From positions 1-64,000 of the forward strand of contig CANRCB010000001.1 in assembly GCA_947629015.1 (NCBI GenBank): 64,000 nucleotides of DNA, given 5' to 3'. Shown here piece after piece: positions 1,418-11,207 of the stretch. Made by a program: the position numbers and the translations under genes. The DNA is from an uncultured Gemmiger sp. Its GTDB lineage: Bacteria; Bacillota; Clostridia; Oscillospirales; Ruminococcaceae. A model generated the notes under the pieces. The model made no database searches, had not been told where the DNA came from, and saw only the letters and a list, made by a program, of their open reading frames with translations. Position 1 is the stretch's first letter. Each line of letters opens with the position of its first letter.

Positions 1418-1584
1418 GGATGCAAACCTCCCTTACAAGACGGAACACGGCGTGCCCGCCGCGCCGGATGCAGAATTTACCAACCCCATTATACCGCAAC
1501 AGCGCCCGCCAAAAAAAGTGTACACAAGCACAAGAATGCGCCACGTTTTTTGTACAAATTGGCCTAATAGTGAAAATGATTCAC

Positions 1585-1613
1585 TTGACAAGTGAGTGCT
1601 ACTCAACTATAAT
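1585..1613 (+). promoter_or_regulatory. Sigma-A-type promoter for ilvA with overlapping inverted repeats
   Basis: TTGACA (1585-1590), 17-nt spacer, TATAAT (1608-1613); TCACTTGACAAGTGA palindrome over the -35 and GAGTGCTACTC in the spacer. Confidence 0.75.
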
Positions 1614-1663
1614 CGAAAAGTGCTGTGCGCACAGGGTGTAAATGGAACGGGAGTTGTGTTTGT

Positions 1664-2869
1664 ATGCTCACACTGGACAAGATCTACCACGCCAAATTCG
1701 TGCTCAAGCAGGTCGCCCGCAAGACGGACCTCATCGCCGCGCCGCTTCTGCACGCCGACAGCGAGCTGTACTTAAAGACCGAGAACCTGCAGGTGACCGG
1801 CAGCTTCAAGGTGCGCGGCGCCTACTACAAGATCAGCCAGCTCACGCCGGAGGAGCGCGCCAAGGGCGTCATCGCCTGTTCGGCGGGCAACCACGCGCAG
1901 GGCGTGGCGCTGGCCGCCACCCGCATGGGCATCAAGAGCGTGGTGTGCATGCCGGACGGCGCGCCCATCATGAAGGTGGAAAACACGCGGCGCCTCGGCG
2001 CCGAGGTGGAGCTGGTCAAGGGCGGCTATGACGACGCGCATGACCGCGCCGTCGAGCTGCAAGGGCAGACCGGCATGACCTTCATCCACCCCTATGACGA
2101 CGAGATGGTCATCGCGGGGCAGGGCAGCATCGGGCTGGAGATCCTGGACCAGCTGCCGGATGTCGAGGCCGTCGTCGTGCCGGTGGGCGGCGGCGGGCTC
2201 ATCGCAGGGGTGGCGTTCGCCGTCAAAAGCCTGCGGCCGGACGTCAAGGTCTACGGTGTACAGGCGGCGGGCGCGGCAAGTATGTACAACGCCCTGCACC
2301 ACCACGCCTACGAGACGCTGCCCGCCGTGGATACCTTCGCCGACGGCATCGCCGTCAAGACGCCCGGCGAGCTGACCTATGCGATGGCGGAGCAGTATGT
2401 CGACGACATCGTCACCGTCAGCGAGGACGAGATCGCCGCGGCCATCCTCACGCTGATGGAAAAGCAGAAGCTCGTGGCCGAGGGCGCGGGCGCCACGCCG
2501 GTGGCGGCGGCGCTGTTCGGCAAGCTGCCCATCGCCGGCAAAAAGACCGCGTGCCTGATCTCCGGCGGAAACATCGACGTGAACATCCTGTCCCGCGTCA
2601 TCACGCGCGGCCTCATCATGAGCGGGCGCAAGTGCAACCTGATGATCGCTTTGGAGGACAAGCCCGGCCAGCTGACGCGTGTGTCCGAGATCATCAGCGG
2701 ATGCGGGGCCAACGTCGTGAGCGTGCAGTACGACCAGGGCGACACCAACATGGCCATCACCAGCTGCTTCCTCAAGCTGGCGCTGGAGACAAAGGACGCC
2801 GCCCAGATCACCCAAATCAAAACCAGCCTGGCCCAAAACGGGTTCAAGCTGGTCAGCGAGAGAGTTTGA
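1664..2869 (+). CDS. ilvA: Threonine ammonia-lyase (PLP-dependent, C-terminal ACT domain)
   Basis: MLTLDKIYHAKFVLKQVARKTDL..., PLP motif TGSFKVRGA, C-terminal ACT-like region. Confidence 0.9.
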   Translation: MLTLDKIYHAKFVLKQVARKTDLIAAPLLHADSELYLKTENLQVTGSFKVRGAYYKISQLTPEERAKGVIACSAGNHAQGVALAATRMGIKSVVCMPDGAPIMKVENTRRLGAEVELVKGGYDDAHDRAVELQGQTGMTFIHPYDDEMVIAGQGSIGLEILDQLPDVEAVVVPVGGGGLIAGVAFAVKSLRPDVKVYGVQAAGAASMYNALHHHAYETLPAVDTFADGIAVKTPGELTYAMAEQYVDDIVTVSEDEIAAAILTLMEKQKLVAEGAGATPVAAALFGKLPIAGKKTACLISGGNIDVNILSRVITRGLIMSGRKCNLMIALEDKPGQLTRVSEIISGCGANVVSVQYDQGDTNMAITSCFLKLALETKDAAQITQIKTSLAQNGFKLVSERV

Positions 2870-2871
2870 TT

Positions 2872-2997
2872 AAGAGTGGAGTTTGGAGAGTGGAGAGTGG
2901 AGATGGAAGGGGAAAAACGGTGATATGTTTTTAAGATCCGTGCCGCTTTGCGGCACACCGCAACTCCACTTTCCACTTTCCACTCTTAACACTCAAA
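2872..2997. repeat. Heptamer purine/pyrimidine inverted-arm repeat element (copy 1)
   Basis: Left arm gtggagtttggagagtggagagtggag, right arm ctccactttccactttccactctt, central gtgccgctttgcggcac hairpin. Confidence 0.75.
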
Positions 2998-3004
2998 CGG
3001 ATAC

Positions 3005-4213
3005 TCAAACCTCCACCCCGGCGGCCAGCAATTCGATAAACTGCCGTGCCACGCGCGGGCTGCGCCCGCCGGCGCGCAGGGCGAACGCCTCGCCCCGGAG
3101 AAACAGCTGGTCGGCGGGGCGCTGCACGCCGTACTGGCGCGCCAGCTCCAGCAAAATGGCCTGATAGCGGGCCTTGTCCGGCCGCTGGAAGGTCACCGTC
3201 AGGCCAAACCGGGCCGAGAGGCTCATCAATTCCTGCCGGGTGTCCATCTCGTGGATGTCGTCCCCGCTGCGGTCGGCCAGCGTCTCCTTTACAAGGTGCC
3301 GCCGGTTGGAGGTCGCGTAGACCGCCACGTTGTGGCTGCGCCCGCCGGCGCTGCCCTCCAAAATGGCCTTGAGGGCGGCAAAGTCATCGTCGTTGGCGGT
3401 AAAACTCAGATCGTCGATGAACAGGATGAACTTGAGCGGGTTTTCCGCCAGCTGGTCCATCACGGCGGGGATCTGGTAAAGCTGGTTCTTTTTGATCTCC
3501 ACCAAACGCAGGCCCCGCGGCGCATACTCATTGGCCAGCGCCTTCACGGTGCTGGATTTGCCGGTGCCCGCGTCGCCGTACAGCAGCACGTTGTTGGCGG
3601 GCCTGCCGGCCAGCAGGGCCTCGGTGTTCTCCACCACCTTGCGGCGCTCGGCCTCGTAGCCGGGCAGGTCGGCCAGGCGCTGCGGGTCGGGGCAGTGCAC
3701 CGGCACCAGCGCGCCGTCCTCCACCGTGAACACATGGTGGCGCGCAAAGATGCCGTACCCCTTCTGCCCCACCTCGGCAAGGCGCTGCGCGTAGGCGGCG
3801 GGCAGGTCGATGGCGTCGGTGCCCCAGGCGGGCAGAAAGGCGCAGGCATCGCGGGCGGCGCCGTCCAGCCCCGCCAGGATATCCCCAAGCCGCAGCGCGC
3901 CCAGCGTTTGCAAAAACGCAAGCTCCTGCGCAAGGCAGGCATCGGCCAGCGGCCCCGCCCCGCCCGCGGCGGCCTTGCGGATGCAGGGGTTTTCGTCCTC
4001 CAGCACGGCGTCGGCAAGGGCCGCCGTCCAGCTGCCGCCGTAGGGCAGCAGGCTTGCCTCAAAGTCCGCCACCGCGGGCACAAGGCGCGCGGGCGCGGCC
4101 TCCTGCCCGCGCAGGTACAGCACCATGCGCAGGTATTGCACCGGCGCGGTTTGCAAAATGCCGCGGAACACCACAAGCCCTTCCAGCCGCAGCGCCATCT
4201 CATCCAACGTCAT
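3005..4213 (-). CDS. DUF815-family AAA+ ATP-binding protein
   Basis: Walker A YGDAGTGKSS, Walker B FILFIDDLSF, family motif LVEIKKNQL. Confidence 0.85.
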   Translation of the reverse strand: MTLDEMALRLEGLVVFRGILQTAPVQYLRMVLYLRGQEAAPARLVPAVADFEASLLPYGGSWTAALADAVLEDENPCIRKAAAGGAGPLADACLAQELAFLQTLGALRLGDILAGLDGAARDACAFLPAWGTDAIDLPAAYAQRLAEVGQKGYGIFARHHVFTVEDGALVPVHCPDPQRLADLPGYEAERRKVVENTEALLAGRPANNVLLYGDAGTGKSSTVKALANEYAPRGLRLVEIKKNQLYQIPAVMDQLAENPLKFILFIDDLSFTANDDDFAALKAILEGSAGGRSHNVAVYATSNRRHLVKETLADRSGDDIHEMDTRQELMSLSARFGLTVTFQRPDKARYQAILLELARQYGVQRPADQLFLRGEAFALRAGGRSPRVARQFIELLAAGVEV

Positions 4214-4406
4214 TAAGAACATTCCTTTCGCATTTGAGCGCGCTTTTTGAACAAAAGCGCAGTTCCAGTATAAACGATTGTTGGCCGCGTTGCAAGATTT
4301 TGCGCCGCGCCGGTTGACAAAATCCCCGCAGCGTGTATCCTGTTTAATATATGTAAGGAAAGAATGACGCTGCATCGGGCCACCCGGGAAGGAGAAACGA
4401 CACGGC

Positions 4407-6071
4407 ATGAAGCTCAACGGCTCACAGATCTTTGTCGAGGTATTGGCGGAGCAGGGGGTGGATACCCTGTTCGGCTACCCCGGCGGCGCGGTACTCAATT
4501 TGTATGATGAGCTCTACAAAAACCGCGACCGCATCCGCCATATCCTGACGGCGCATGAGCAGGGCGCCGCCCACGCGGCGGACGGCTACGCCCGCGCCAC
4601 GGGGCGCACCGGCGTGGTGCTGGCCACCAGCGGCCCCGGCGCCACCAACCTTGTCACCGGCATTGCGACCGCGTATATGGACAGCATCCCCCTCGTCGCC
4701 TTTACCGGCAACGTGGGCACCGCCCTGCTCGGCAAGGACAGCTTTCAGGAAGTGTACATCGAGGGCATCACGGTGCCCATCACCAAGCACAACTTCACCG
4801 TGCGCCGCGTCGAGGATCTGGCCGATACCATGCGCGCCGCCTTCCGCATCGCCCAGAGCGGGCGCAAGGGGCCGGTGCTCGTCGATATCCCCAAGGACGT
4901 CACCGCCAACGTGTGTGAGTTCACGCCCAAAGCGCCGGAGCTCATCCGCACCGTGACCGTCTATGATGAGGAAAAGGTTTTGAAAGCGGCCGAGCTCATC
5001 AACACGGCGCGCCGGCCCATCGTCTGCTTTGGCGGCGGCGTGCGCAGCGCCGCCGGCTGCCAGCCGCTGCGGGACCTTGTGCACAAGGGCGATATCCCCG
5101 CCACCTACACCCTGATGGGCACCGGCGTGCTGGACTATGGCGAGCCGCACAACCTCGGGATGCTGGGCATGCACGGCTGCTACGCCGCCAACAAGGCGGT
5201 GTCGGAGGCGGACCTCGTCATCGCCGCCGGTATGCGCTTCTCCGACCGCGTGGCCTTGAAGCCCGAGGCATTTGCCCCCAAGGCAAAGATCATCCAGATC
5301 GACATCGACCCCAGCGAGCTGGGCAAAAACGTCCCGGTCGATCTGAGTTTGGCGGGCGATGTCTCCTACGTACTGCAGGCCATTTTGCCGCATATCGAGC
5401 AGCGCTACCATATGCTGTGGACGGAGCAGATCGAGGCCTGGCAGAAAAACGACTACCACCCCAAGGATTCCGATACCGAGCTGCGCCCGCACCAGATCAT
5501 TGAGGAGATCTGCGAACAGTGCGGCCCCGACGCCGTGTATGTGACCGATGTCGGCCAGCACCAGATGTGGGCGGCGCAGTACCTGCACCACACCCAGAGC
5601 CGCGGCTTTATCACCAGCGGGGGCCTGGGCACCATGGGCTTTGGCTACGGCGCGGCCATCGGCGCGCAGGTGGCCCTCGGCACGGACAAGCGGGTCGTCA
5701 TGCTCACCGGCGACGGCAGCTTCCACATGAACCTCAACGAGGGGTGTACCGCCGTCAGCTACGGGCTGCCCATCATCACCGTCATCTTCAACAACCAGGT
5801 GCTGGGCATGGTGCGCCAGTGGCAGACCGCCTTTTACGGCAAACGCTATTCCTGCACAGACCCCGGGCGCAGGACGGATTTCGTCAAGCTGGCCGAGGGC
5901 TTTGGCGCCAAGGGCTACCGCTGCAATACCATCGCCGAGTTCCGCGCCGCCTTTGCCGATGCCCGCCTGCAAAAGGGCCCCAGCTGGATCGACTGCCGCA
6001 TCGCCAAGGACGAAAAGGTCCTGCCCATGATCCCCGGCGGCGGCGATATCAACGATATCATCATGGAATGA
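4407..6071 (+). CDS. ilvB: Acetolactate synthase large subunit
   Basis: MKLNGSQIFVEVLAEQGVDTLFGYPGGAVLNLYD..., TPP-binding motif GDGSFHMN. Confidence 0.95.
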   Translation: MKLNGSQIFVEVLAEQGVDTLFGYPGGAVLNLYDELYKNRDRIRHILTAHEQGAAHAADGYARATGRTGVVLATSGPGATNLVTGIATAYMDSIPLVAFTGNVGTALLGKDSFQEVYIEGITVPITKHNFTVRRVEDLADTMRAAFRIAQSGRKGPVLVDIPKDVTANVCEFTPKAPELIRTVTVYDEEKVLKAAELINTARRPIVCFGGGVRSAAGCQPLRDLVHKGDIPATYTLMGTGVLDYGEPHNLGMLGMHGCYAANKAVSEADLVIAAGMRFSDRVALKPEAFAPKAKIIQIDIDPSELGKNVPVDLSLAGDVSYVLQAILPHIEQRYHMLWTEQIEAWQKNDYHPKDSDTELRPHQIIEEICEQCGPDAVYVTDVGQHQMWAAQYLHHTQSRGFITSGGLGTMGFGYGAAIGAQVALGTDKRVVMLTGDGSFHMNLNEGCTAVSYGLPIITVIFNNQVLGMVRQWQTAFYGKRYSCTDPGRRTDFVKLAEGFGAKGYRCNTIAEFRAAFADARLQKGPSWIDCRIAKDEKVLPMIPGGGDINDIIME

Positions 6072-6084
6072 AGGAGGCCGCACG

Positions 6085-6711
6085 ATGGAACAAAACCAGC
6101 CAACCCCCGCCCAGCGCCGCGTCATCAGCCTGCTGGTCGAAAACCAGAACGGCGTTTTGGCCCGTGTGTCCAGCCTGTTCTGCCGCAAGGGCTTCAACAT
6201 CGACAGCCTCACCGTCTCCACCACGCGGGACCCCGCCGTCAGCCGCATCACCGTCACGCTGCGCGGCTCGCAGCGTGAGGTCGAGCAGCTGCTTTTGCAG
6301 ACCGAACGCCTGGAGGTCACCCGCCAGATCTTTGAGCTGCGGCCGGACAATTCCCTCCAGCGGGAGCTGCTGCTGCTGAAGGTTGAATGTGACGCAACCA
6401 ACCGCTCCCAGCTGTGGGAGCTGGCCAATATGTACAAGGCCAAGCTGCTGGATATGTCGCCCGACAGCATGGTCGTGGAGTTGACCGGCAAGCCGGAAAA
6501 GATCGATGCCTTCCTCACCATGTTCGAGGGGTACACCGTGCTGGAAATGTGCCGCACCGGCGTCACGGCGCTGGAGCGCGGCGGCCGCCACCCCCATATG
6601 CAAAAGCCCCCGCAGGAGGTGCGCGCCGTCCAGCTCAAGGATATCGAGCTCACGCGCCATCCCGCCAAAGGCGCGCCGGCCCGGCCGGCGGCGGACGAGG
6701 CGCAGCCCTGA
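6085..6711 (+). CDS. ilvN: Acetolactate synthase small subunit
   Basis: ACT-domain sequence VISLLVENQNGVLARVSSLFCRKGFNIDSLTVS; directly follows ilvB. Confidence 0.93.
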   Translation: MEQNQPTPAQRRVISLLVENQNGVLARVSSLFCRKGFNIDSLTVSTTRDPAVSRITVTLRGSQREVEQLLLQTERLEVTRQIFELRPDNSLQRELLLLKVECDATNRSQLWELANMYKAKLLDMSPDSMVVELTGKPEKIDAFLTMFEGYTVLEMCRTGVTALERGGRHPHMQKPPQEVRAVQLKDIELTRHPAKGAPARPAADEAQP

Positions 6712-7806
<1,095 letters not shown>

Positions 7807-7818
7807 ATGATGCAAAAA

Positions 7819-8015
7819 GGCTTCCCCCTCCGGGGGAAGCTGTCGCCGAAGGCGACTGATGAGGGGGAAGGGCGGCCGTTTGCGGGGGTGTTTCCCACCC
7901 TCACCCCTCATCCGGCCGCTTCGCGGCCACCTTCCCCCCTCCGGGGGGGAGGGCTGCTCCCGTCCCCTCATCCGTCTGCGCTTCGCGCAGACACCTTCCC
8001 CCGGAGGGGGAAGGC
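7819..8015. repeat. Composite palindromic repeat cluster between ilvC and ilvD
   Basis: Three units of CCTTCCCC...GGGGAAGG plus a variable GAAG/CTTC hairpin plus GATGAGGGG; one forward, two inverted. Confidence 0.85.
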
Positions 8016-8036
8016 AAATTGGAAGGAGTTTTTTCT

Positions 8037-9701
8037 ATGCGCAGCGACAACGTGACCAAAGGCCCCGAGCGCGCGCCCAACCGCAGCTTGTTCTACGCCC
8101 TCGGCTACACCAAAGAGGAGCTGGAGCGCCCGCTCATCGGCGTCGTGTCCGCCCACAGCGAGATCGTGCCCGGCCACATGGACCTGGACAAGCTCGCCGA
8201 GGCCGTCAAGGCCGGCGTGCGCATGGCGGGCGGCACGCCCATCCTCATCCCGGCCATCGGCGTGTGCGACGGCATCGCCATGGGCCACATCGGCATGAAA
8301 TATTCCCTCGCCAGCCGCGAGCTCATCTGTGACAGCGTCGAGACGATGGTCATGGCCCACCAGCTGGACGGCGTGGTGCTCGTGCCCAACTGTGACAAGA
8401 TCGTGCCCGGCATGGTCATGGCCGCCGTGCGCATGGATGTGCCGGCCGTGGTGTGCTCCGGCGGGCCGATGCTCGCCGGCACCTACGGCGGCGAGAGCGT
8501 CAGCCTTTCCAAAATGTTCGAGGCCGTCGGCGCCTACAAGGCCGGCCTCATCACCGACGAGCAGCTGGAGGACTGCACCTGCAACTGCTGCCCGGGCTGC
8601 GGCTCCTGCTCCGGTATGTACACCGCCAACAGCATGAACTGCCTGTGCGAGGCCATCGGCATCGCGCTGCCCGGCAACGGCACCATCCCGGCCGTCTACG
8701 CCAAGCGCCTGCAGCTGGGCAAGCAGTCCGGCATGGCCGTCATGGAGATGGTGCGCCGGGGCATCACCGCGCGCCGGATCATCAACGCGCGCAGCATCCG
8801 CAACGCCCTTACCTGCGATATGGCCCTGGGATGCTCCACCAACACCGTGCTGCACCTGCTGGCCATCGCGCACGAGGCGGGCGTGGATATTGATTTGAAA
8901 CTTTTCAACGAGATATCGGCCAAAACGCCCAACCTCTGCCACCTGGCCCCGGCCGGGCCCACCCATATGCCGGACCTGTACGCCGCCGGCGGCATCCCCG
9001 CCGTGCAGGCCGAGCTCGTCAAAAAGGGCCTGCTCGACCTCGACGTGCCCACCGTCACCGGCAAGACCCTGGGCGAGAACCTTGCCGAGCTCAAGCCCGT
9101 CAACAAAAACCCCAACGCCATCCGCCCCATCTCGGACCCCTACAGCGCCACCGGCGGTTTGCAGATCCTTTGGGGCAACATCGCGCCGGACGGCTGCGTC
9201 GTCAAGCGCAGCGCCGTCGCGCCCGAGATGCAGCGCCATGCCGGCCCCGCCCGCGTCTTTGACAGCGAGGAGGCCGCCATCGACGCCATCTACAACGGCC
9301 GCATCGTGGACGGCGACGTCGTCGTCATCCGGTACGAGGGGCCCAAGGGCGGCCCCGGTATGCGCGAGATGCTCAACCCGACGAGCGCCCTCGCCGGCAT
9401 GAACCTGGACAAGACCGTCGCCCTCATCACCGACGGCCGCTTCTCCGGCGCCTCGCGCGGGGCGGCCATCGGCCACGTCTCCCCGGAGGCCGCCGCCGGC
9501 GGGCCCATCGGCCTCATCGAAGAAGGGGACACCATCGAGATCGACATCCCCGCGGCCTCCATCCGCCTGGCCGTCAGCGATGAAGAGCTTGCCCGCCGCA
9601 AGGCCGCCTACACGCCGCCGGAGCCCAACATCAAAACCGGCTGGCTGGCGCGCTACGCCCGCATGGTCACCAGCGCCAACCTCGGCGCCGTGGTGCAGTG
9701 A
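8037..9701 (+). CDS. ilvD: Dihydroxy-acid dehydratase
   Basis: [28 protein letters not shown]..., [18 protein letters not shown] motif. Confidence 0.96.
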
Positions 9702-9718
9702 GCCTGCCGTTTGCCCCT

Positions 9719-9756
9719 CGCCGCCCGGCGCCCTTTGGCGCCGGGCGGCGCTTTGT
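9719..9756 (+). terminator. Intrinsic terminator of the ilv cluster
   Basis: cgccgcccggcgcc-cttt-ggcgccgggcggcg perfect hairpin followed by ctttgtg. Confidence 0.7.
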
Positions 9757-9764
9757 GCTCCAGG

Positions 9765-9794
9765 TTGACAGGGGTCTGCCCTGCACGCTATAAT
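9765..9794 (+). promoter_or_regulatory. Promoter for the G9-tract gene
   Basis: TTGACA (9765-9770), 18-nt spacer, TATAAT (9789-9794); AGGAGG RBS before ATG 9845. Confidence 0.7.
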
Positions 9795-9844
9795 CAAAAA
9801 AACGGGCCTGCCCGCCACGCTGCGGGTAAGGACAGGAGGAAATT

Positions 9845-11066
9845 ATGACAGAATATCTGCTTTCGGACGAAAAAATCCTCTGGGGGGGGGTTAAGATGGC
9901 AACAGCTGACGGAGGAAAGGCTGCGGGACGAAAAATGCCTTGAACGGTACGGCTACAAGGTCTATTCCCAAAACGACGAGGACGGCATCCTGCAGGAGAT
10001 CTTCCGCCGCATCGGCACGACCAACCGCTTTTTTATCGAGTTTGGCGTCCAGGACGGGCTGGAGAGCAACGGCCACTACCTGCTGCACCTTGGGTGGCAG
10101 GGCTACTGGATGGAAGGCAGCGCGGAATATGTGGAACAGATCCGCCGCAAGTTCCATCCGGTGTTGGCTGCCGGCCAGCTGCGCTGCAAGCAGGCGTTCA
10201 TCACCCGCGAAAACATCAACGCCCTCCTGCGTGAGGCCGGGCCCCCGCGCCGGCCGGATCTGCTCAGCATCGACATCGACGGCAACGACTACTATGTCTG
10301 GCAGGCGGTCACCGAGGTGGACGCGCGGGTCGTCGTGATAGAGTATAACGGCAAATTCCCGCCCGACTGTGACTGGAAGATGGCCTATGACCCCAACCAC
10401 ATCTGGGACGGGTCGGACTGGCACGGCGCCTCGCTCAAAGCGTTGGAGCTGCTGGGCGCGCAACGGGGCTACCAGCTGGTCGGCACCAACCTTTCCGGTG
10501 CCAATGCGTTTTTTGTCAAAAAGGAGCTGGCAGGGGAGCTGTTCTGCCAACCCGCGACTGCACAGGCCCTGTACAACCCCCTGCGCCTGGGGCTTAAACA
10601 CCGCAACGGCCATCCGGCGCGCTACTGCCTGCGCGGCCAGGCGGAGGGCCTTGGTGTGCTGAACTACGCCCCGGGGGTGAAGGCTGTCCCGGGTTACGGG
10701 TTCCATGAGATCGAGCGGGACGGCACAAAGGAACACTGCTGGACTGCGGCGCCGGAAAGCCGGCTGACGGTCCGCCGCAGCCCCGGGGATACCTGCCTGC
10801 GGCTGCCCTGCACGGTGCCGCAATGCGTTTTGGAGCGCTGCGGCGGGCGATACCCGGTGCGGGTAGCGGCCGGGCAGGCGCCGGCGGCCGAATATTTTGT
10901 CACGGAAAACAGCGTGCTGGAGATCCCGCTCCCTCCCGTAGAGGAGGCGTGCGTCTGCCTGACCCTCAGCGCGCCCTGCCTGTGGAGCCCGGCGGAGGTT
11001 TCCGGCTCCGCCGACACGCGCCGCCTGGGCGTTTCGGTCTGCCTGAGCGGCATCACCACCGGCTGA
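9845..11066 (+). pseudogene. FkbM-like (SAM-dependent) methyltransferase, frame interrupted at a G9 homopolymer; phase-OFF allele or frameshifted
   Basis: ATG 9845 frame stops soon after G9 (9882-9890); removing one G joins it to the 10110..11066 frame (...IEFGVQDGLESNGHYLLHLGWQGYWMEGSAEYV...LLSIDIDGNDYYVWQAV...), ~406 aa. Confidence 0.75.
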
Positions 11067-11178
11067 CAATACGGCATACCGGGGAAAACGATACCTTACA
11101 GGGCGGCACCCGCACCGGGGCTTTACGCATCCGGCGCGGGTGCCTGTGCATTGGCCGGCCTTTGCCCTGCGGCCCCAC

Positions 11179-11207
11179 TTGATTTTGCGGTGCGGAAATG
11201 CTACAAT
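11179..11207 (+). promoter_or_regulatory. Putative promoter for the M16 peptidase operon
   Basis: TTGATT-17 nt-TACAAT. Confidence 0.5.

Follow-up and report, generated by a model that had tools for sequence, protein, structure and literature searches.

The locus at 9845-11066 of the window (the whole 64,000-nucleotide stretch of DNA analysed here, from an uncultured Gemmiger sp.) raises the question of whether a run of nine Gs that breaks the frame of a methyltransferase gene is a reversible switch, an error of assembly, or the mark of a gene being lost. Our reading, which we hold with good confidence on the evidence of the sequence, is that this is a poly-G contingency locus of a SAM methyltransferase, one of about 13 tracts in the genome. 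The host genome, a draft in 75 contigs, is 87% complete and has a GC content of about 64%. The signals and frames at the locus are as follows.

9719..9750, + strand: terminator-like hairpin of 14 GC pairs, 3' of ilvD (consensus scan)
9765..9794, + strand: sigma-70 consensus promoter TTGACA-N18-TATAAT, 12/12 positions matching (consensus scan)
9834..9839, + strand: Shine-Dalgarno sequence AGGAGG, 5 nt upstream of ATG 9845 (from sequence)
9845..9943, + strand: ATG frame as assembled with 9 G, 32 codons and then TGA, the OFF product
9882..9890, + strand: poly-G tract, G9, codons 13-16, encoding the Gly-Gly of a conserved (W)-G-G
9891..11066, + strand: downstream open frame P0001, SAM-methyltransferase-like, 391 aa plus stop, with whole-length homology

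The promoter, ribosome-binding site and ATG that the initial annotation had placed here are all borne out by the sequence, with a -35 box (TTGACA, 9765-9770) and a -10 box (TATAAT, 9789-9794) separated by a spacer of 18 nt. The hairpin after ilvD suggests that the methyltransferase gene is transcribed on its own. As the same annotation had claimed, nine Gs break the frame, with the stop at codon 33 (TGA 9941-9943), and 8 or 11 restore it to 11066: when tract lengths of 7 to 12 were tried in silico, only these two left the frame open, for 406 or 407 codons, and tracts of 7, 9, 10 or 12 led to an early stop. The downstream frame has no ATG, GTG or TTG before 10110, and a product started there would miss the conserved residues S26, Q27, E30, D31 and G32 as well as E50-G52; the 9-G form should therefore yield no working enzyme. 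In other words, the locus has the layout of an ORF-type contingency locus, with an early run of at least 8, a run length that sets full-length against truncated product, an intact remainder, and similar loci at surface functions elsewhere in the genome.

Which tract length is ON can be read from the family. In homologs this site holds two conserved glycines, which in the closest ones follow a Trp. Two Anaerotruncus genomes, whose proteins are 56-58% identical to P0001 over the whole length, read WGG-LRWNLL at this site, three further homologs (L017-L019) also read WGG, and the window gene with 8 G reads W-G-G-L. Because homologs encode the conserved (W)-G-G at this point, eight Gs would be the ancestral reading and nine the OFF form. 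The Gly codons of the homologs are mixed (e.g. ggcggt, ggagga), and L018 and L019 carry an in-frame G7 at the site. Most likely, judging from these alignments, the run developed from a normal Trp-Gly-Gly stretch, with nine as the off length. The 391 codons downstream are without damage, with a GC3 of 0.83 compared to 0.84-0.93 for host genes. All tract lengths given here are those of assembled consensus sequence, with one consensus genome per species.

The initial annotation called the product an FkbM-like methyltransferase. The protein has two parts.

9939..10535, + strand: methyltransferase Rossmann region, about residues 17-215 (alignment, structure model)
10668..11063, + strand: C-terminal beta-rich domain, about residues 260-391, only in longer family members

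When 28 family members were aligned, the Rossmann region contained the invariant motifs SQ..EDG, E.G, SID.DGND, E.N and NAFF, which by their sequence are typical of a SAM methyltransferase. An AlphaFold2 model of the window protein has a pLDDT of 94.6, and its best Foldseek matches in the PDB are the sugar C-3'-methyltransferases TcaB9 and KijD1 (TM about 0.33, 18% identity); whole-chain TM-scores are low, about 0.3, so the fold is supported and the subfamily is not. From the model we are confident in predicting a SAM-methyltransferase fold with a C-terminal beta-rich domain. Assignment to the TcaB9/KijD1 type of C-3'-methyltransferase is not supported, as there is no close structural or sequence match across the whole protein. 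A sequence search of the PDB returned no credible match, and Pfam and NCBIfam searches at E 0.1 returned no family for the window protein. Its score against PF05050 (FkbM), 12.7 bits, is below the gathering cut-off of 22.7, and PF05050 matches 25 of the 28 family members weakly (best E 1.1e-5). Thus the methyltransferase half of the earlier name stands on motifs and fold, and the FkbM half describes only a remote relationship. The FkbM family (PF05050, TIGR01444) has the SAM-methyltransferase fold in common with the window protein; unlike that family, however, the window protein has an extra C-terminal beta-rich domain and conserved motifs of its own. Lachnospiraceae homologs adjoin GT2 and GT4 glycosyltransferases, a UDP-glucose dehydrogenase and an MBOAT acyltransferase. 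A glycan-directed methyltransferase is the best reading, with methylation of a surface-glycan sugar as the candidate function.

The gene is absent from the other genomes of the genus (35) and from the order sample (397), so that no close relative among them has a copy whose tract length could be compared. In this species it stands alone, outside any glycan cluster. The closest relative within the genus (G018, DNA identity 86-92%) has the sequences corresponding to window positions ~1556 and ~11198 side by side (L165, G018:C33), and to judge from this junction the block 1557-11197, with ilvA, ilvBNCD and the methyltransferase, is absent from that genome or lies elsewhere in it. There are viral relatives as well, though only distant ones, with identities of 48% or less.

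The run is one of several in the genome, where 51 G/C runs have a length of exactly 7, none has 8, 12 have 9 and a single one has 10. Dinucleotide shuffles give about 3 expected G9 in the window, and Markov models of orders 2-4 expect 11-33 G9 per genome; these same low-order models overpredict shorter runs, with 186-308 G7 against 51 seen and 39-89 G8 against none. With models of orders 5 and 6 the G7 figure moves closer to what is seen, and the number of G9 expected is then about 1, while the genome has 12. We dropped the G9 count alone as proof, since dinucleotide shuffles and Markov models of low order reach totals of much the same size. What is unusual is the run-length distribution, with its gap at 8, and the placement of the runs, not any single run. 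The 13 runs of at least 9 comprise six coding tracts in frame, three coding tracts out of frame and four upstream of genes (three of them in promoter spacers), and they sit at glycan, secreted-protein or prophage genes. The 12 besides that of the methyltransferase are these.

C3:72458: NAD-epimerase, off at 9, open at 7 and 10
C3:81775: membrane protein, in frame
C3:88849: epimerase, in frame
C3:93181: epimerase, in frame
C12:22938: SAM methyltransferase, in frame
C25:9774: membrane protein, in frame, C-run on the coding strand
C21:17889: DNA methyltransferase beside terminase (L079/L080 pair), G9 near the 3' end, in frame
C21:34168: prophage tail-fibre-like gene (L079/L080 pair), G10, off at 10, open at 9
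C1:211404-211412: promoter spacer TTGACA-N18-TAGAAT of a secreted LRR/DUF4214 protein (L073), G9
C3:5243-5251: promoter spacer TTGAAA-N18-TATAAT of a GT2 glycosyltransferase (L074), G9
C14:9491-9499: promoter spacer TTGCAA-N19-TATACT of a secreted repeat protein (L078), G9
C27:13220: run upstream of a 1153-aa DUF4214 lipoprotein

Neither of the large membrane proteins (C3:81775, C25:9774) has a Pfam match; size, topology and neighbours point to a glycan role for them. Contig C21, which carries both the 17889 and the 34168 runs, is prophage-like. The base after the run is T in 12 of the 13 runs, and TA follows in 8, coding tracts included; at the promoters these bases belong to the -10 box. Loss of mismatch repair, as in some hypermutable species, was ruled out, MutS being present.

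Frame-breaking runs also occur in distant homologs. Among 63 homolog loci, a G9 lies within the conserved region in one Lachnospiraceae genome (L053, 3345-3353) and one Blautia genome (L060, 3340-3348), both draft assemblies. The two runs share one loop, between window residues 113 and 123, and each breaks the frame at 9 G and leaves it open at 8 or 11. Since this site differs from that in the window, frame-breaking runs arose in the family on at least two occasions, at two sites. A third candidate, a G14 in L047, was dropped as an in-homolog tract, the stop coming before the run; a G14 in L037, in an open frame upstream of the conserved region and with its start codon not placed, was left out of the count. 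The frame break in L056 comes without a long run. In termite-gut Spirochaetaceae MAGs (L037, L046, L047), G/C runs 13-15 long lie close to homologs of the gene.

In Neisseria (e.g. porA), a poly-G/C run between the -35 and -10 boxes sets their spacing by its length and thereby causes phase variation. The promoters described here likewise carry a G-run between the two boxes, where its length may act on expression; unlike in Neisseria, they are consensus promoters in Clostridia, with the run in most cases directly against TATAAT. We scanned for TTGACA-N3-12-G8-N0-8-TATAAT, with the reversed pattern as a control. The pattern matched 22 times in 15 of 397 order genomes (L113-L134) and 9 more times in 6 of 292 class genomes (L170-L178), and the control gave no match in either set. 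By a simple hydrophobicity rule, a protein with a signal peptide or TM segment lies downstream in 22 of the 31 cases, while the opposite direction gives 3 of 31. Within one genome (G305) the spacers of paralogous promoters measure 15, 16, 17 and 18, and two promoters in another (G552) differ from each other by one G. Within the genus this promoter type is confined to the two in the present genome, with none in its other species. The proteins behind the Clostridia poly-G promoters are mostly secreted proteins or lipoproteins.

How else might nine Gs be explained? The real tract could be a stable G8 that was misassembled or miscalled in the consensus, in which case the gene would simply be intact. 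The genome is a draft of short contigs, G-runs are error-prone (as discussed in PMC9187656), and the absence of any G8 run could hint at a G8-to-G9 assembly bias. However, six other coding tracts of the same assembly are correct at 9, which excludes a uniform, systematic +1, and two separate assemblies have an out-of-frame G9 in homologs at another site; a single 8-to-9 error confined to this tract is what remains, and we consider it unlikely. Plain loss, by which a +1 in a G8 run became fixed and left a young pseudogene bound to decay, would fit a gene that is otherwise absent from the genus and order sample and may thus be dispensable. Yet the gene retains its ribosome site and a promoter of full consensus, the 391 codons hold no second lesion, and the break falls in the one easily revertible run, with similar runs at 12 other loci, all of which makes loss quite improbable in our view. 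We give very little credence to the idea that the gene is expressed with 9 G and not switched, the break being made good by +1 frameshifting of the ribosome or by slippage during transcription: G-runs can make polymerase slip and the ORF is otherwise translation-ready, but most homologs are continuous without a run here, so no frameshift signal is conserved.

Phase variation gains from the tract set of the genome, the two G9 homologs and the recurrent poly-G promoters. It is weakened by the presence of MutS, the position of the gene outside a glycan cluster, its absence from the rest of the genus, and the 75-contig draft. The candidate phase-variable switch of the initial annotation is, in sequence terms, supported by the 8-G frame of the family, the 12 other runs of at least 9 and the two homologs with G9. 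We infer that in living cells slipped-strand mispairing at replication would reversibly add or drop a G in the tract near codon 13. Tracts of 8 or 11 G would give the full protein (ON), and other lengths, including the assembled nine, would give a stop within about 35 codons (OFF). The ON protein would be a SAM-dependent methyltransferase whose presumed substrate is a surface-glycan sugar. The remaining tracts would act on glycan enzymes, on promoters of secreted or glycan-building genes, and on two prophage genes.

The slippage mechanism is already known from Campylobacter and Bifidobacterium breve. Campylobacter poly-G tracts have a modal length of 9 (53%), followed by 10 (26%), in a phasome analysed with PhasomeIt (PMC6321876), and Cj1295 is a flagellin glycan gene (PMC3068675); homopolymers in general are treated in PMC2831843. 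As here, poly-G runs of 8-11 lie in surface-glycan genes that include SAM-dependent methyltransferases, are modal at 9 and then 10, and form a mix of on and off states. In contrast to Campylobacter, the host here belongs to the Clostridia, has a GC content of about 64% and MutS, and carries fewer tracts (13), several in promoters, with lengths from consensus only. In the B. breve pilus, a G11/G12 switch has been proven by maximum depth sequencing (PMC9187656). That organism is likewise a Gram-positive gut commensal in which an intragenic G-tract joins or splits a surface gene, and its reference genome represents one length of a mixed population; it differs in being an Actinobacterium, in that pilus genes are involved, and in its G11/G12 lengths, whereas the present tract is known from a consensus assembly.

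The window gene appears to belong to a set of on/off switches that work by slippage and have so far gone undescribed. In the open-access literature we found no poly-G or homopolymer phase variation for Faecalibacterium, Ruminococcaceae, Lachnospiraceae or Clostridia. For gut Firmicutes, discussion of phase variation has centred mostly on DNA inversion. We lean towards the hypothesis that gut Clostridia carry a general poly-G phasome, in which slippage of G9-G12 runs in glycan genes and in promoter spacers adjoining the -10 box would switch surface proteins and glycan enzymes as well as the tail fibres of prophages, and which would have captured the methyltransferase family at least twice independently. 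If this is true, single reference genomes would misreport which surface genes are on, annotation pipelines would be labelling reversible genes as pseudogenes, and the tract lengths in metagenomes already available could reveal immune or phage selection on commensals.
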